From positions 1 through 64,000 of the forward strand of contig JAHEAA010000005.1 of the NCBI GenBank assembly GCA_019721035.1: a stretch of 64,000 nucleotides of DNA. The letters run 5' to 3'. A program made the translations under genes and the position numbers. Positions within the stretch are counted from its first letter, which is position 1. Each line of letters starts with the position of its first letter. Below, piece by piece: positions 40,860 to 62,189 of this stretch. The notes beneath the pieces were generated by a model. It saw only the letters and a program-made list of their open reading frames with translations. It did not search any database and was not told the origin of the DNA. Source of the stretch: Candidatus Sysuiplasma acidicola. Lineage in GTDB: Archaea > Thermoplasmatota > Thermoplasmata > Sysuiplasmatales > Sysuiplasmataceae.

Positions 40860-41660
40860 ATGCCCGGTGAGATTCGGCTTCATGCAGAGGACAGATATTC
40901 AAGAATGAGATTGGTGACAGGAGTTGACATCAATGCCATCAGAGATTCACACATTTGTGTCGTGGGAGCCGGCGCCCTCGGTAACGAAGTAATAAAGGAT
41001 CTTGCACTATATGCACCGGCCAGGCTGAGCATAGTGGACAGAGATTACGTGGAGTATTCCAACCTCGGCAGATGTTTTCTGTTCAATGAGCAGGATGCAG
41101 AAGAGAGAAGCGGAAAAGCCGAAGCTGCTTCAAGGAGTGCACACAGCATCAACACCGATTGCAAAGCCGAAGCTGTCAATGAGGATGTGACAACCCTGGA
41201 TGCTTCATTCTTTTCTCAATACGATGCAGTATTCGGGTGTGTGGACAGCATAAAAACGAGGCTGCACCTTAACTCGAACTGCTACTTCTCTGGCATTCCG
41301 TACATAGATGGGGGCATAGACGGCCTCTACGGAAGGGTTCAAGTCGTGTTTCCGCCTCACAGTCCTTGCTATGAATGTGCAATAAACGCTACCCATTTTT
41401 CTCAGATTGACAGAGGATACTCCTGCACCGGGAGAGAGGCGAATGTTCCCAGCAGGCAAATTGCTTCCGACCCTTCGGTTTGCGGAACTGTCGGTTCGCT
41501 TCAGACACTACAGGGGTTGAAGGTCGTTTCCGGCACCCTGAGCGAGGGAACTCTGCTGTTCTTCGATGGGTTTTCGTCATCACTGCTGCCTCTTGAACTG
41601 GCCGTCGACCCGAAATGCATCAATCACGTTTCACCTCCCGAAACGACGAGCTCAATATGA
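40860..41660 (+). CDS. E1-like ubiquitin/ThiF-family activating enzyme
   Basis: The 266-residue protein is a ThiF/MoeB/E1 adenylation domain. R12 and R15 (DRYSRMRL) match the ATP-contacting arginines. VVGAGALGNEV (34-44) is the nucleotide loop, D60 and D62 with SNLGRCFLF (67-75) follow, then K86. C170 and C173 (CYEC) form half of a zinc site; the usual second CxxC pair is not evident. C189 in YSCTG sits where E1 enzymes carry the thioester Cys. It would adenylate the C-terminal Gly of the adjacent ubiquitin-like protein and pass it to the E2. It is shorter than UBA3 and lacks a ubiquitin-fold domain for E2 recruitment. It is the first gene of the operon. Confidence 0.88.
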   Translation: MPGEIRLHAEDRYSRMRLVTGVDINAIRDSHICVVGAGALGNEVIKDLALYAPARLSIVDRDYVEYSNLGRCFLFNEQDAEERSGKAEAASRSAHSINTDCKAEAVNEDVTTLDASFFSQYDAVFGCVDSIKTRLHLNSNCYFSGIPYIDGGIDGLYGRVQVVFPPHSPCYECAINATHFSQIDRGYSCTGREANVPSRQIASDPSVCGTVGSLQTLQGLKVVSGTLSEGTLLFFDGFSSSLLPLELAVDPKCINHVSPPETTSSI

Positions 41661-41699
41661 GCCGAAAATATGCGTGTGCCAGTTTTGCATTGAAAAAAG

Positions 41700-41716
41700 C
41701 TCAAAAGATTAAATTA
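41700..41716 (+). promoter_or_regulatory. Possible internal promoter before the ubiquitin-like gene
   Basis: The 111-base gap between the E1-like and ubiquitin-like genes contains the AT-rich AAGATTAAATTAG, about 60-70 bases upstream of the ATG. A CCGGAG block at about 41757-41762 may serve as ribosome-binding site. This could allow extra expression of the modifier relative to its enzymes. Confidence 0.35.
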
Positions 41717-41771
41717 GACAAATGCGTTTCGGGCAGCGCAAGTTACAACCAATCGTCCGGAGAATACAGAT

Positions 41772-42014
41772 ATGAGCATCATGAAACTTGGAGTGAGACA
41801 TTCACAGACGGGAAACAGCGCACTGATGGAAGTTGATTTGAAGACCAGGTTGCAGGAATTACTTGACAGTGCGATAGAATTCTGGTCTCTGCCCAGTGAG
41901 GCATATCTCATTAAATCAGGTAAACGTCTTCTCTCCGCCTCGAAAACGGTTGCCGAGTGCGGACTGAATGACGGAGACATCATTGATCTGCTTCCGGATC
42001 CTGAAGGTGGATGA
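41772..42014 (+). CDS. Ubiquitin-like modifier protein with C-terminal Gly-Gly
   Basis: The 80-residue protein shows the beta-grasp pattern. KLGVRHSQTGNSALMEVDL gives the first hairpin, LQELLDSAIEFWSL the helix, then AYLIKSGKRLLSASKTVAEC aligns with the RLIFAGKQLEDGRTLSDY region of ubiquitin. GLNDGDIIDLLPDPEGG forms the last strand and tail. It ends exactly in Gly-Gly, so no processing is needed before adenylation. Only the Lys at positions 5, 24, 48, 51 and 58 (by count) could form chains. The start at 41772 precedes an alternative ATG three codons later. Its stop overlaps the E2 start (ATGA). It would be the modifier conjugated by the neighbouring enzymes. It resembles the EsaB/YukD-like branch more than SAMP1. 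Confidence 0.85.
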   Translation: MSIMKLGVRHSQTGNSALMEVDLKTRLQELLDSAIEFWSLPSEAYLIKSGKRLLSASKTVAECGLNDGDIIDLLPDPEGG

Positions 42015-42499
42015 TGCTTCCCGTCCAACTGCTTCACATGAGAGTGCAACGGGAACTCGAAGCCTGCAGAAAAATACCTGGAGTCACAATCGAGGGAACG
42101 GTGGACTACGGGAAGACGGAATTTCCCATATGCCTCGACGTTTACGTTACAGGCGCCACGGGAATGATGATTATCGATGGAAAAGCAAGAGAGATAGACA
42201 GTCATAGGTTTGCGGTGGAGATAGGAAGGGATTATCCATACCAGAAACCCGGCGTTTTCTGGCAGACACCGATATTTCATCCGAACATCTGTCCGCCTGA
42301 GGACGGTGGAATGGTCTGCACGAAATTGCTTAACGAGTGGAGGGGCGAGAGAACGTTATATTCGCTCATCAACGCGGTGCTGTATCTCGTAGAACATCCC
42401 AACGGAAGAGAGCCGCTGGGGGCGGATGCATGCATGAACGCGGCGAGATATCTTCTGGAGCGGTCCGGCGATGCGGGTAAAGATAGTCAGCAGCATTGA
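42011..42499 (+). CDS. E2-like ubiquitin-conjugating enzyme
   Basis: The 162-residue protein has the canonical E2 core. An N-terminal helix (about 5-22) leads to the four-strand sheet, then DYPYQKPGVFWQTPIFHPN (74-92). The HPN tripeptide is 90-92 and the catalytic Cys is 103 in GGMVCTKL, 11 residues after Asn as in UBC enzymes with a short insert. W110 matches the conserved Trp after the active site; LYSLINAVLYLV and EHPNGREPL give the crossover helix and PN..PL motif. It should carry the modifier as a thioester and pass it to Lys. Its start overlaps the modifier's stop, and the JAMM gene begins inside its end. No RING or HECT E3 adjoins it. Confidence 0.9.
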   Translation: MMLPVQLLHMRVQRELEACRKIPGVTIEGTVDYGKTEFPICLDVYVTGATGMMIIDGKAREIDSHRFAVEIGRDYPYQKPGVFWQTPIFHPNICPPEDGGMVCTKLLNEWRGERTLYSLINAVLYLVEHPNGREPLGADACMNAARYLLERSGDAGKDSQQH

Positions 42500-43001
42500 A
42501 AGGAAAATCGAAAGCCACCGCATTCCTGAAAATATAACGTGGAGCAGCTGTGGAAACCCGTCGAAAGGAGCTGTCTTCATTAATGCGAGAGCAATTATTC
42601 AAGTCAGAAAGCGCGCTTCAGAAGCGTTTTCAGAACTTAAGGAGACCATGGGATTGCTCCTGGGCCACCCTTTTTACGACTCGGGCGAATTGAAACTAGA
42701 AGTCAGCGAGTCGGTAGCGTTGCCGGTTAATGCGAATGCACATCATGTTGCCGTGGACAAACAGGCCTTGGAATTTAACTGGAACGAAACAGCGGGAGGG
42801 AATCTCATTGTTGGGTGGTATCACTCACACACGGGCCAGGGAAATTTCCTTTCTGAAACTGACAGAAGAACGCACGAACTCTGGTTCAATCAACCGCATG
42901 CTGTCGCAATGCTGATAGAGGCATCCGAAAACACGATAGGCATATATTCAAGACGCGGTGGAGCGCTGACAGCTGTAGATTACAACGTGTTCGAAACGTA
43001 G
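42471..43001 (+). CDS. JAMM/MPN+ metallo-isopeptidase (deubiquitinase-like)
   Basis: The 176-residue protein contains a complete JAMM site: E58 in ELKETMGLLLG, H118-S-H120 in GWYHSHTG, S128, and D131 in FLSETDRR, giving HxH-x7-S-x2-D. The fold matches AMSH, CSN5 and Rpn11-type zinc peptidases and archaeal HvJAMM relatives. It would cleave isopeptide bonds between the ubiquitin-like protein and its targets. Since the modifier already ends in Gly-Gly, a role in removal or recycling is more likely than in maturation. Its reading frame overlaps the E2 gene by 29 bases, strong evidence for coupled expression. Confidence 0.88.
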   Translation: MRVKIVSSIERKIESHRIPENITWSSCGNPSKGAVFINARAIIQVRKRASEAFSELKETMGLLLGHPFYDSGELKLEVSESVALPVNANAHHVAVDKQALEFNWNETAGGNLIVGWYHSHTGQGNFLSETDRRTHELWFNQPHAVAMLIEASENTIGIYSRRGGALTAVDYNVFET

Positions 43002-55643: not shown

Positions 55644-57776
55644 TCATTCTCTCGGAGCGCCTGAGACAGCTTCTGGAACCGTATGCACCTCGGGAATATC
55701 AGCAGCACCATCATCGGATGACTGTATTGCCGGCAGCCTGAATTCATCGTTTTCCTGTGGGAAGAAGAGATTATCATACAGATACAGTGCGTAGCTGAAT
55801 ATGAGAAACTCAATGCCTGTGCCTATCCCCCAGTATGTGCTTGCCTGGCCCGTGGTCGGAACCAGAAGCATGAATCCGAATATAATGAAGGCAAGAACCA
55901 TGAGGGCCGAGATGAGAAGAATCGGTGATTTTTTAATTCTGACGTCATCCGCCTCAGGTTCATTGCCAATCGTGTCGGTAGATGTTCCGCGGGCGATCTT
56001 CCTGCCGAACAATATGAACGCCAGGCCGATGGGAATTACTATACCAAGACCATAGACTGTTGGCGTGCTCAGGAAACTCGACAACGTGCCAATAAAGACA
56101 AGACCTGCGACGGCCAGCAAAGCTGCAGTTTTCGGAGTTAACCGTAAATTTCCCTTTGCCCTGTTCACGAATTTCGGTATCAGATAAATGCTCAGGAAGG
56201 CAATTACCAGCGGTGGAAGCATAATACCGACCTGGTAGGTGAGAGGTTCGGCCTTCCCGTTTGTTGTATATGCCCAGACGCCTAACTGGACAAGGTAGGT
56301 AATGAGCAGTATGACTACACCTATCCAGAAGGATCTCCTTCGATCTATGGCTTCATCTGTAGACCATGAATGCGCCACACCATTTGTGCTTCTGCCGAAC
56401 AGTGCTAACGAAAGACAAAGAGGAATCAGTATCCCTGCTCCATAAATTACCGGCGAACTCATGAGACTCGGGATAGTGCCTACGAATGTCAGTCCTGCTG
56501 CAATCAGCAGTGCAGACGTCTTTGGGCTCAGTTCAAACTCGCCTCTTCTCCGGTTATGGAATCGTGGCAGCAGATAAACGAACAGGAATGTCATAACCAG
56601 CGGTGGAAGCATGAAACCCACCTGCAATGCGAATGGCTCTGGCACACCGGGGGCTGTGTAGCCCCAGATGGTAAGCTGGACAAGGTAGGTAATGAGCAGT
56701 ATGCCTATGCCTATCCACAAAGATCTCCTTTGCGGCTCGGTTTCGTCTGATCTGTCAAGCCACGGCAAAGCAAGCAGATAGAGCGCGGGAATCATTGCTG
56801 CCAGTGTGGATGCAACCAGCGGATTGTATGCGCCTCCTGTAGGGGTGTTGAAATCAAGTGCTTTGTAGAGGAAAAGGAAGAACCACGGCGGATACGGAGG
56901 CACTGTGAGTGCGAGGGGACTCGTTGGTGATGGAGCCGGGGCAGGCTGCAGTATGAATGGAATGCCGTTTATATTTGCCAGCACGTTTGGAACTATAAGG
57001 ATGAGACCCCAAATCATGAGGGTCAGTGATAGCATGTAGACGAAGTTACGGGGCCACCATGGATTGAAATTTTTCCATTCGTCCTTTGAATATACCGCAG
57101 GAGCTTTGTCTCTGACCTTCTTGGATGGCATCACACCATACTGTTCAAAGAGAAGGAAGTGGATGACGAAAAACGCGCCAATCATGGAGGTAAGTATGAT
57201 GTGCCAGGCAAGAAGCCTTGTATACATGTCCAGAGGCAGACCATTGCCGAACACTATAACCTGAAGCGTACTTCCGCCAGGCAAATAGGAGAGAATACCA
57301 TTGGCTACGCCATCCGCATCCACACCAAGTATGTCAGCCGGCAGGGAGTAACCAGTGAACGCTGTTGCGAGGGTTAGCGCGAATAGTACGAGGCCAACTA
57401 CCCACAGAAATTGGCGAGGCTTCTTGTAGGCGCCGTCAAAATAATTTCTGAAAAGATGAAGGTATATCAGAAAAATCATGAAATATGCACCATACAGGTG
57501 ACTGAACAATATAGGCGCGCCGAACGGGATTTTCTGAACCAGAAAAATGGTCTGGTTGTAAGGATCCGAGGGATAATAGGTCAAAAGCAGGAACAGGCCG
57601 GAAAACACCTCAAACGAAAGTGCGGCAGCCACAAGGGCACCAAGCCAGTATTTAATGCGAAACATATAGTTGGGCGTTTTGAAGAGAGGCTGTTCATTGA
57701 TGTCGATTATATCAGTGAGCGAAAATTTCGGCACGTATTTCGAAATCATACCTGAAAGCTTATCAAACACTTTCAT
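55644..57776 (-). CDS. Cytochrome b (b6-type core) with duplicated C-terminal membrane module
   Basis: The 710-residue protein has the four heme ligands: H93 and H107, and H192 and H206, each pair spaced by 13 residues. The second half of the Qo region reads PPWF (296-299) in place of PEWY. From residue 350 a module of about 130 residues with three to four hydrophobic segments is repeated in tandem (350-479 and 480 to about 600, around 58% identical by eye); the cytochrome b family does not need it. The end is acidic and cytoplasmic. It would transfer electrons from quinol to the Rieske protein. It is directly downstream of the Rieske gene. Confidence 0.9.
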   Translation of the reverse strand: MKVFDKLSGMISKYVPKFSLTDIIDINEQPLFKTPNYMFRIKYWLGALVAAALSFEVFSGLFLLLTYYPSDPYNQTIFLVQKIPFGAPILFSHLYGAYFMIFLIYLHLFRNYFDGAYKKPRQFLWVVGLVLFALTLATAFTGYSLPADILGVDADGVANGILSYLPGGSTLQVIVFGNGLPLDMYTRLLAWHIILTSMIGAFFVIHFLLFEQYGVMPSKKVRDKAPAVYSKDEWKNFNPWWPRNFVYMLSLTLMIWGLILIVPNVLANINGIPFILQPAPAPSPTSPLALTVPPYPPWFFLFLYKALDFNTPTGGAYNPLVASTLAAMIPALYLLALPWLDRSDETEPQRRSLWIGIGILLITYLVQLTIWGYTAPGVPEPFALQVGFMLPPLVMTFLFVYLLPRFHNRRRGEFELSPKTSALLIAAGLTFVGTIPSLMSSPVIYGAGILIPLCLSLALFGRSTNGVAHSWSTDEAIDRRRSFWIGVVILLITYLVQLGVWAYTTNGKAEPLTYQVGIMLPPLVIAFLSIYLIPKFVNRAKGNLRLTPKTAALLAVAGLVFIGTLSSFLSTPTVYGLGIVIPIGLAFILFGRKIARGTSTDTIGNEPEADDVRIKKSPILLISALMVLAFIIFGFMLLVPTTGQASTYWGIGTGIEFLIFSYALYLYDNLFFPQENDEFRLPAIQSSDDGAADIPEVHTVPEAVSGAPRE
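55950..56339. repeat. 390-bp internal tandem repeat of the cytochrome b gene, copy 2
   Basis: Encodes residues 480-609. It shares a 28-base identical block with copy 1 (starting at 56286 and 56676), giving a period of exactly 390 bases. Similarity weakens after about residue 597. Confidence 0.75.
56340..56729. repeat. 390-bp internal tandem repeat of the cytochrome b gene, copy 1
   Basis: Encodes residues 350-479. Each copy begins with RRS(L/F)WIG and includes ILLITYLVQL and MLPPLV, and ends with ALFGR or ILFGR plus a polar linker. Confidence 0.75.
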
Positions 57777-57792
57777 TCAATCACTTTATTCA

Positions 57793-58680
57793 TCACGGGA
57801 ACGGATTTATTTTTGCGGTAACTACAGTAGAACTGCCGGTTACCGGTGTACCGCCTTCCAGAGTGCTCGTATGGCCGTAAACAGGAACTCCCACCTCACC
57901 AACTGCATAAAGTTGATCTGTGGTAGAATCCCATTCCAATACAACCGAAGGCAGTGGCCTTTCAGTAGGTCCAGTCAGCACAGCTGCGCCACGGTAAGGA
58001 TCGTATGTGGAGCCATGACAGTCGCAGTGTATGACAGCCGGGATACCTGCACTGTTAGCTGCTGTAATCGCTTCAGGCGGAAGGAGTGCAGGGGGTGGCA
58101 TGCCGGTTTTCATTTCGTCCGGAGGGTACAAATGAATTTCCGGAGGAGAGCAACCGAGATGCTGACATATTGCGCTGTATGACACAATCGATTTGTGCGG
58201 CCCGACTCCTCCAGCAAACTTATATTTGCTTCCGTCAAGCGGAACCGTGACTTCTGCTGCTGGAACCGCGACAGGGTTGTTTTGCTGGTCACCGAGATTG
58301 AGTACGAAATTGATTTCGTTCTGAAGCGGGTATTCATACAGCGTTATAATTGGATTGTTGACCGGAAATGCGGAAGCCTTTACGGCGGAGCCGGTCGAGT
58401 CCACAAGGAGCATCTTTGTGTAAGACTTCGCACCCACGATCGGTACCTCCAGACCGCGGATTGCGCCGAGAGCGCTCGCCACTGCAGCTGCACCTATTCC
58501 AAATATCATCCCTTTGATGAATTTACGCCGGCTGTCATCGATACGACCAACGTTTGAATCCAGGTACTTGAAAAGATAATCTTCACCATTCTTGACGAAA
58601 AGTTCGTCGTTGAATCTAGTTCGAGGATTCTTCATTGCGCCTGAGGTCTTGGACAGGTAATAGTAATCCTCAATGCTCAT
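57793..58680 (-). CDS. Rieske iron-sulfur protein with Tat-type signal anchor
   Basis: The 295-residue protein starts with about 50 cytoplasmic residues, then SRRKFIKG (Arg51-Arg52, a twin-arginine motif) and a hydrophobic stretch (about 57-75). The Rieske boxes are CQHLGC (C172, H174, C177) and CDCHGS (C219, C221, H222): two Cys and two His for the cluster, plus a Cys pair for the disulfide. The gap between boxes (41 residues) is long. It accepts electrons from the cytochrome b encoded next and passes them to a cupredoxin. Folded export by Tat fits the tatA and tatC genes in the same island. Confidence 0.94.
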   Translation of the reverse strand: MSIEDYYYLSKTSGAMKNPRTRFNDELFVKNGEDYLFKYLDSNVGRIDDSRRKFIKGMIFGIGAAAVASALGAIRGLEVPIVGAKSYTKMLLVDSTGSAVKASAFPVNNPIITLYEYPLQNEINFVLNLGDQQNNPVAVPAAEVTVPLDGSKYKFAGGVGPHKSIVSYSAICQHLGCSPPEIHLYPPDEMKTGMPPPALLPPEAITAANSAGIPAVIHCDCHGSTYDPYRGAAVLTGPTERPLPSVVLEWDSTTDQLYAVGEVGVPVYGHTSTLEGGTPVTGSSTVVTAKINPFP

Positions 58681-60021: not shown

Positions 60022-61374
60022 TCAGATTGTTTCCCTGACGGCCGCATCGGCATAGATTCCGATGAAGCCTCCAAGATATGTGAGATAATGGGCCTGTGTA
60101 AAGATTGTGCTTGATACGGCAAGTGTGTCCTGGACTGTGTAGTACGTTCCCGATCGCGTACCATGGGATGATTGGATTGTTTTCGTGCTGCTGACTGTCG
60201 TATGAGCAGAAGCAACGAGCGCCGTATAGTTGGATTTCGTCACATTGAATGTTCCCCACATTCCTTTGGCGAAGTCGTTAGAAACTTCAGAAATGTACTT
60301 GTAATTACCCACTCTAGTCACGTTGAAATAAATCTGAATAGTCGTGTTCTTTGGCGTACCCGCAGTAGGATTCGGACTTGATGCGTTCTTGAAAACAGGA
60401 GTGTAATTTGGGGAAGTGGTGTTCGTTATGTTTCCCGGAACAAGTATCCAGGAATGGTTTGAAGCAGATGTTGACGGTATCGTCAGTGTGAGCCAGACCA
60501 TTGTATTGTTCGGAGCCGTCATGGCAGGACCTGGCGTGGTCCCGTTGAACGTCTGAGTGGCGTTGGCACCCGCCACAAGACTGAAATGCTCCTTAGGTAC
60601 AGTGGTCGTAGTGTTGCCTGAAGTGACATTGAACCAGCCCCACATGCCGGATTCGAAGTGACCGGGGAATTCGCAGATGTACTTGTAACTGCCTGCTTTG
60701 TTGGCAAAGAACACAATCTGATCGGAACTGCCGACCGGTGAGCCAGCGGTAGGATTGGGACTTGTTGCATTAGGGAAGACAGGTGTAAAATCGGGAGTTG
60801 GCACGGGCGAAACGTTACCAGGAACAAGTACCCACGAATGTGGATATCCTGCGCTCGAATCAACATGGAATGTAACCCAGACACGGGTGTTTACAGGAAC
60901 AGTAAGTGTAGGACCCGGACTCGTGCCATTGAACGTAAAACTACCGTTTGGACCGGCATCGATGGTGAAGTGAACATACGGTGCAGGTGGAGGTTTGAAT
61001 GCCGGTGGCGGAGGAGTGGTCAGTGTATGAACATCTGCAAATATGAACGCCACACCTATGACAAAAACAATGATACCGGCCATAAGCATATTCTGACGGC
61101 GTCTGATTTCAGGTGTAAATTTCCTGTTGCCTGTTGCGCTGGACCTGGCAGAAGAAGCCCGTGGAGGCGGAGTTTCGTCGTGCTCGCCGGCGGTACTCGG
61201 AGTCTGACTCTTCGGACTCTCCGGTGTCTCTTTTCCGCGCAACGCGGTGTTCAGTCGTTCGAAGAGCTGAGTTGCTTCATTCTCTGAAAGCAATACAGAT
61301 TCTCTATCGCCCATCTTGACTTCGAAAACATCTTTGCGAGATACGTCGACACGTTTTCCGTCGGGTTTTGTCAT
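60022..61374 (-). CDS. Membrane-anchored protein with two cupredoxin domains, one copper-less
   Basis: The 450-residue protein has a cytoplasmic charged N-terminus (about 1-95), one membrane helix (about 96-115), and two homologous cupredoxin domains (about 130-255 and 262-380). In domain 1 the type 1 copper ligands are H179 (YPHSW), C234, H239 and M244 in CEFPGHFESGM, as in sulfocyanins. In domain 2 H307 and M372 remain but C is Ser362 and the second His is Asp367, so copper binding is probably lost. Many N-glycosylation sequons show the domains face outward. It likely shuttles electrons between the Rieske protein and an oxidase. Confidence 0.88.
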   Translation of the reverse strand: MTKPDGKRVDVSRKDVFEVKMGDRESVLLSENEATQLFERLNTALRGKETPESPKSQTPSTAGEHDETPPPRASSARSSATGNRKFTPEIRRRQNMLMAGIIVFVIGVAFIFADVHTLTTPPPPAFKPPPAPYVHFTIDAGPNGSFTFNGTSPGPTLTVPVNTRVWVTFHVDSSAGYPHSWVLVPGNVSPVPTPDFTPVFPNATSPNPTAGSPVGSSDQIVFFANKAGSYKYICEFPGHFESGMWGWFNVTSGNTTTTVPKEHFSLVAGANATQTFNGTTPGPAMTAPNNTMVWLTLTIPSTSASNHSWILVPGNITNTTSPNYTPVFKNASSPNPTAGTPKNTTIQIYFNVTRVGNYKYISEVSNDFAKGMWGTFNVTKSNYTALVASAHTTVSSTKTIQSSHGTRSGTYYTVQDTLAVSSTIFTQAHYLTYLGGFIGIYADAAVRETI

Positions 61375-61526: not shown

Positions 61527-62189
61527 TTACTTAACAATGATGACTCCATTCATCCAGCCCGCTGCAAGCATTGCTCCTGCATCCCCGTACGGTCCGCTGC
61601 CGCACAATGCTTCACATTGCCAGTGATAAACACCTGGGCTGAGAACAAATGTGGCATATTCGGTAGAAGAGGGCAGCACAGGAATATTCAAGACAGTCTT
61701 ACCGTTTTTGAACACTGAAAAAGTGTGCGCCACATTGTCCTTCGGGAATGAGCTCAATGTCATTCCGCCATTCACAGCAATACCGGCGCTTGAGGAACCG
61801 GTAGTTGAGTTGACGTTTGTATCGTTTACAACAAAAACATCATTGCCATTTGTTCCTGTGACGTTTGCGAATTGAGAAGGCACAACAGCAGCACCGCCGT
61901 CGTAATTCACGATGGTGATGTCGATTGGAACGTTGGCTGGCAGACTTATGTTAGCCGATGAGTAGAGCTTTCCGTCGTGCACAACAAAGTACGCCGGCTG
62001 CGATCCGATAGTATTGTTATACCAGTTCTGCGTAGTGATTACTAGATTCAAATCATAAACACCATTGCCGGCTCCCGATGCACCGGCAAGGGGGCCGTAT
62101 GAGAATAGAAAACCAGCAAAAATACCTGCGCCAAATACTATCACAACTATGAGTGCCAATGCCTTATCGAAATTGCCGAATATTTTCAT
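61527..62189 (-). CDS. Cytochrome c oxidase subunit II-like cupredoxin
   Basis: The 220-residue protein has an N-terminal membrane helix (about 9-32) and an extracellular beta-rich domain with sequons. Near the end AHTFSV supplies H155, and PGVYHWQCEALCG gives C192 and C196, spaced as in the CuA site (C-x3-C-G). The second CuA His expected four residues after the second Cys is not there (Pro200), and Met207 follows a seven-residue insert. It is therefore CoxII-like but with an altered copper site. It may be an oxidase subunit or a mononuclear copper carrier. It is upstream of the two-domain cupredoxin on the same strand. Confidence 0.75.
   Translation of the reverse strand: MKIFGNFDKALALIVVIVFGAGIFAGFLFSYGPLAGASGAGNGVYDLNLVITTQNWYNNTIGSQPAYFVVHDGKLYSSANISLPANVPIDITIVNYDGGAAVVPSQFANVTGTNGNDVFVVNDTNVNSTTGSSSAGIAVNGGMTLSSFPKDNVAHTFSVFKNGKTVLNIPVLPSSTEYATFVLSPGVYHWQCEALCGSGPYGDAGAMLAAGWMNGVIIVK

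Follow-up and report, generated by a model that had tools for sequence, protein, structure and literature searches.

An in-frame duplication of a four-helix C-terminal module in a SoxC-like archaeal cytochrome b

The SoxC-like cytochrome b encoded within the window, that is, the whole stretch of 64,000 nucleotides analysed here, carries a C-terminal membrane module in two tandem copies, and the same architecture is present in a sister species of these acid-dwelling archaea. The duplication and its age relative to the divergence of the two species can be read from the comparisons described below; that the extra four helices form a lipid-facing periphery with no part in electron transfer is considered probable. 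The usual picture of cytochrome b is of a respiratory membrane protein with eight helices and a high degree of conservation, and a limited search of the open-access literature found no description of a similar duplication in this protein.

Results

The gene lies on the minus strand at 55644..57776, in a Thermoplasmata genome (G000; 1.97 Mb, 35 contigs) related, among others, to that of Candidatus Sysuiplasma superficiale (L033), and encodes a protein of 710 amino acids with approximately 16 transmembrane helices, as judged from hydropathy and AF2 secondary structure. Scores of 149.9 bits (cut-off 27) and 76.4 bits (cut-off 27.2) place it within the PF00033/PF13631 cytochrome b families (E-values of 8.5e-44 for PF13631 and 3.3e-21 for PF00033). 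The NCBIfam SoxC model, NF041076, an equivalog for a subunit of the SoxABCD-type quinol oxidase complex, matches in two stretches (2.3e-195, 650.6 bits), and since this score falls below the curated cut-off of 740 the protein is referred to as SoxC-like rather than as SoxC. It is proposed, from sequence, to be the membrane subunit that oxidises quinol in a bc1-like archaeal complex, of which the product of the adjacent Rieske gene is also part.

The catalytic core, delimited with a 10-sequence alignment and by alignment to b6/bc1 structures, comprises helices A-F (residues 1-349; 56730..57776, minus strand). Heme ligation and the Qo motif in this family sit in the core, ahead of the module. 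The ligands here are H93/H107 and H192/H206, two bis-His pairs on helices B and D, and the Qo motif of the PEWY type reads P296-P297-W298-F299 (PPWF); both features are invariant in the 10-sequence alignment. Systematic variation in this motif has been described (PMC9162462). At the opposite end of the protein, a two-helix tail (residues 616-671; 55764..55931, minus strand), recognised from alignment, hydropathy and AF2 helices, is common to single-module SoxC relatives.

Between core and tail lie the two copies of the module. Comparison of the protein with itself gave a best offset of 130 residues, or 390 bp, at which 60 of 100 residues match (the next offset gives 20). Across residues 350-479 and 480-609 identity is 67/130 (52%), and all 67 identities fall within 350-462 and 480-592, where the figure becomes 67/113 (59%); the corresponding DNA is identical at 238 of 390 positions (61%) across the full period and at 66% across the module. 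Copy A (residues 350-462; 56391..56729, minus strand) was delimited by self-comparison, profile and alignment, and copy B (residues 480-592; 56001..56339, minus strand), its tandem paralogue adjoining the C-terminal helix pair, by self-comparison and profile. A profile of the module, built from sequences that include the window copies, finds two full matches in the protein (iE 4.4e-50 and 1.7e-49). A 28-nt stretch at 56676..56703 in copy A (minus strand; cDNA 1074-1101) recurs unchanged at 56286-56313 in copy B, and encodes ILLITYLVQ in each (residues 359-367 and 489-497). The first-pass annotation had described a tandem membrane module of about 130 residues, with some 58% identity between residues 350-479 and 480 onward, an exact 390-base period, 28 identical bases in a row and no extra heme His pairs, and the repeat was confirmed, as was the lack of such pairs. 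The complete set of histidines consists of the four ligands (93, 107, 192 and 206) together with 407, 469 and 698, and neither copy of the module contains a heme-ligand pair. Nor does any feature of the cytochrome b sequence support the extended quinone or proton paths that the annotation had suggested as a purpose. Assignment of the module to DUF2568 (PF10823) was rejected, as the score of 20.7 bits (best stretch 492-561) is below the gathering threshold of 24.2.

Each module contributes four helices, hydropathy and predicted secondary structure giving a total of 16 in the window protein as compared with 12 for single-module relatives; one tail helix of the window protein was missed at the hydropathy cut-off, but is placed at 644-671 by the AF2 model. 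In alignments to solved cytochrome b chains, the C-terminal portion of these chains is matched up to residues 399-409 of the window protein. The beginning of the module gives a weak alignment (E = 0.004) to b6f subunit IV, from slightly ahead of its third helix to within that helix. On the basis of these alignments, and with helices in the solved chains named as is customary for cytochrome b, the first two helices of the module most likely correspond to canonical G and H, and the other two are a SoxC-specific pair. The module, judged by these alignments, is not foreign to cytochrome b. AF2 models of the window protein and of a single-module relative, computed from alignments of 10 and 8 sequences, have mean pLDDT values of 49.6 and 54.3; with pLDDT near 50 and just 8-10 sequences, they are too weak to place the module against the core, and helix boundaries alone were taken from them. 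When the single-module model was searched with Foldseek, the matches were cytochrome b chains at query TM-scores of about 0.3, with nothing usable for the module.

The distribution of the module was surveyed in up to 200 genomes of the class, 8 of the order, 147 of the Sulfolobales-type order and 390 of the phylum, module number being judged by open-frame length and match coverage, and by the profile for approximately 40 fetched proteins. The profile finds two modules in the window protein and two in that of the sister species G064 (isolate WH2.bin25; protein identical to L032, also L003), where the copies have the same spacing and overall identity to the window protein is 78%. A single module was found in about 35 other relatives from the Sulfolobales, the Thermoplasmatales and the same order, including four other species of that order and the longest open frames of the Sulfolobales order (600-637 amino acids). 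The remaining case is G031, from another genus (L004, 710 amino acids), in whose protein the first module is normal (5.3e-37) and the second very diverged (5.3e-12), as scored with a profile from which its own sequences had been left out. No second module was seen beyond these three species in the class, order, Sulfolobales-type order and phylum genomes searched, and its occurrence is patchy, at three of the seven species of the order that have the gene. A comparison of copy number among relatives had been suggested with the first-pass annotation, along with the possibility that the true copy number is one; two copies in the sister species, from a separate assembly, rule out the latter, and one copy is the number in most relatives. 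In G056 the cytochrome b gene (L008/L040) is split into open frames of 292 and 337 amino acids, owing to a frameshift or a sequencing error.

In a tree of modules, the A copies of the window species and G064 group together (support 96/96), as do the B copies (84/76), and all four form one group (82/84). Since the copies cluster by position and not by species, the duplication is placed, on the strength of this tree, before the split of the two species. The cores of the two species are 92% identical in protein, and the proportion of identical codons at identical residues within them is 0.51, where full saturation would give 0.36; synonymous sites have come close to that limit. The earlier claim of a recent duplication or gene conversion therefore fails as regards recency, while a local conversion is weakly hinted at. 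The hint comes from the 28-nt run, which has P ~0.005 given the overall codon identity, and from codon identity that is slightly higher between copies within a species (0.53 and 0.52) than between orthologous copies (0.42 and 0.36). Informative sites, however, are divided between 18 concerted and 19 orthologous, with a longest concerted run at P = 0.16. Broad gene conversion was rejected, as these sites show no significant clustering; limited conversion is possible, as far as the sequences tell.

Of 23 positions conserved in single-copy modules, 19 are kept in copy A and 17 in copy B, and the PGV loop (376-378) persists in copy A and is lost in copy B (NGK). Between the window species and G064, copy A differs at 36/113 positions and copy B at 32/113, as compared with 28/349 in the core, whereas the single-module pair G049 and G020 differs at 19/113 positions in the module and 35/349 in the core. 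The excess divergence of the modules after duplication relative to the single-module pair (p ~0.01, with sites taken as independent and one species pair per class) suggests that constraint on both copies was relaxed.

The core tree pairs G000 with G064, G049 with G020, and G031 with G008, and rejects a grouping of G000, G064 and G031 (p 0.00017), for which reason the expansion in G031 would be either independent or older and followed by losses. The second module of G031 sits on a branch of length 2.35 in the module tree, and none of three shared origins tested for it is rejected, whether with the B copies, the whole set of duplicated copies or the first module of G031 itself (AU p 0.28, 0.28 and 0.16, respectively).

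The gene immediately upstream of cytochrome b in transcription (57793..58680, minus strand) encodes a Rieske iron-sulfur protein (PF00355, 2e-4), termed SoxL2-like, its match to TIGR03171 (SoxL2; 1.4e-112, 375.8 bits) lying below the cut-off of 582.1. A Rieske gene adjoins cytochrome b in 7/7 species of the order that have the latter. Oxidase genes, for a subunit I+III fusion and a subunit II with a full CuA motif, are found about 10 kb away on the same contig. A weakly matching CoxB-like protein (61527-62189, minus strand) has a CuA-type motif that lacks the His (CEALCGSGPYGDAGAM), and a second subunit II, with CTELCGLGHADM, is encoded at G000:C5:70399-71088. The sulfocyanin-like protein at 60022-61374 (minus strand) has two tandem cupredoxin domains, the second of which, in G064 also, is without the Cys and one His ligand (YISEVSND as opposed to YICEFPGH). 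A link between the doubled sulfocyanin domain and the doubled module was rejected because alignment coverage suggests that the sulfocyanin of single-module G020 and G049 is doubled too. A polytopic membrane protein of 693 amino acids with a C-terminal 4Fe-4S domain also adjoins the respiratory genes (L062:5397-7478, minus strand, equivalent to G000:C5:65396-67477); orthologues occur in L066 and L065, and its membrane part has no family match. Elsewhere in the window, three neighbouring open frames (40860-43001, plus strand) form a compact ubiquitin-like conjugation cluster of this Thermoplasmata archaeon, with matches to ThiF/E1-like PF00899 (1.4e-49), E2-like PF00179 (1.6e-12) and JAB deubiquitinase-like PF01398 (3.2e-12).

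Discussion

The explanation that we favour, and regard as probable, starts from a common ancestor of two sister species in a Sysuiplasma-related order, in which the C-terminal four-helix segment (G, H and the SoxC-specific pair) acquired a tandem in-frame copy. With four helices to the unit, an even number, its addition would have left the topology of core and tail unaltered. Copy A would remain in the canonical place beside the catalytic core, with copy B, which is without cofactor ligands, inserted between copy A and the terminal helix pair. The four extra helices would then be peripheral, enlarging the lipid-facing surface and taking no role in electron transfer, a reading with which the intact heme ligands and Qo motif of the core are in keeping. 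The duplicated module shows no sign of new chemistry. Nevertheless, a specific function, rather than a tolerated structure, could account for the fact that two species have kept both copies with most of the conserved positions intact.

Such a function might be that of a docking surface for the Rieske protein, the heme-copper oxidase or another supercomplex partner, an idea considered unlikely. The genomic setting is suggestive, in that cytochrome b adjoins the Rieske gene in G020 and G049, and in G020 is immediately followed by the genes for oxidase subunits I+III and II, while in the window genome these genes fall within about 15 kb; conservation of both copies across two species points the same way. 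However, oxidase and sulfocyanin genes also accompany single-module cytochrome b, as in G020, so that the set of partners is no guide to the number of modules, and the modules diverge fast instead of being held as an interface would be. Slightly less likely still is that the duplication is functionless and has merely been tolerated. Accelerated divergence of both copies, the extreme branch of the second G031 module and the patchy distribution all speak for such near-neutral retention, but an open frame and the module motifs have been kept in both species even though synonymous sites are close to saturated. A recent duplication or an assembly artefact can be given practically no credence: the 28-nt run is indeed unexpected at synonymous saturation (0/20000 simulations), but the copies, at 61% DNA identity over the period, differ at around one third of their bases, they group by position, and the separate G064 assembly has already refuted this reading.

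Returning to the favoured explanation of an ancestral duplication with a peripheral role, the presence of a very diverged second module in another genus means that the expansion may have happened twice. A more ambitious proposal, which must be regarded as improbable, is that the four-helix unit of SoxC-like cytochrome b is expandable and has been multiplied at least twice independently in one archaeal order, in the G000/G064 lineage and in G031, building a dedicated partner- or lipid-binding surface. A duplication of the helix G-H region that was maintained across a speciation, and that may have recurred in a second genus, shows that the C-terminal half has room for extension with the catalytic core left as it was, and the natural one-copy and two-copy relatives provide material with which the peripheral helices of archaeal bc-type complexes can be tested.

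Among known systems, SoxC of the Sulfolobales (NF041076) is homologous over the whole length, with approximately 43-58% identity in the aligned core, and shares the heme ligands, the PPWF Qo motif, the module, the C-terminal helix pair and, in L034, an adjoining SoxL2-type Rieske gene. However, the relatives examined have one module and about 530-610 amino acids, whereas the window protein has two modules and scores short of the family cut-off. The cytochrome b chains of bc1 and b6f complexes (e.g. PDB 6rqf, 6kls and 8smr) have in common with it the core fold, the bis-His b hemes and the region of helices E-H, but terminate at helix H or close to it (for subunit IV of b6f, helix G), whereas the chain of the window protein goes on into two SoxC-type helices, then the four duplicated ones and one more pair. 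A parallel for the duplication itself is heme A synthase, a protein of 8 TM helices thought to derive from a duplicated 4-TM unit (PMC12808453), which likewise represents a tandem in-frame four-helix duplication in a respiratory membrane protein. It belongs to an unrelated family, however, and its two halves constitute the enzyme itself, whereas the repeat in the window protein lies outside the catalytic core.
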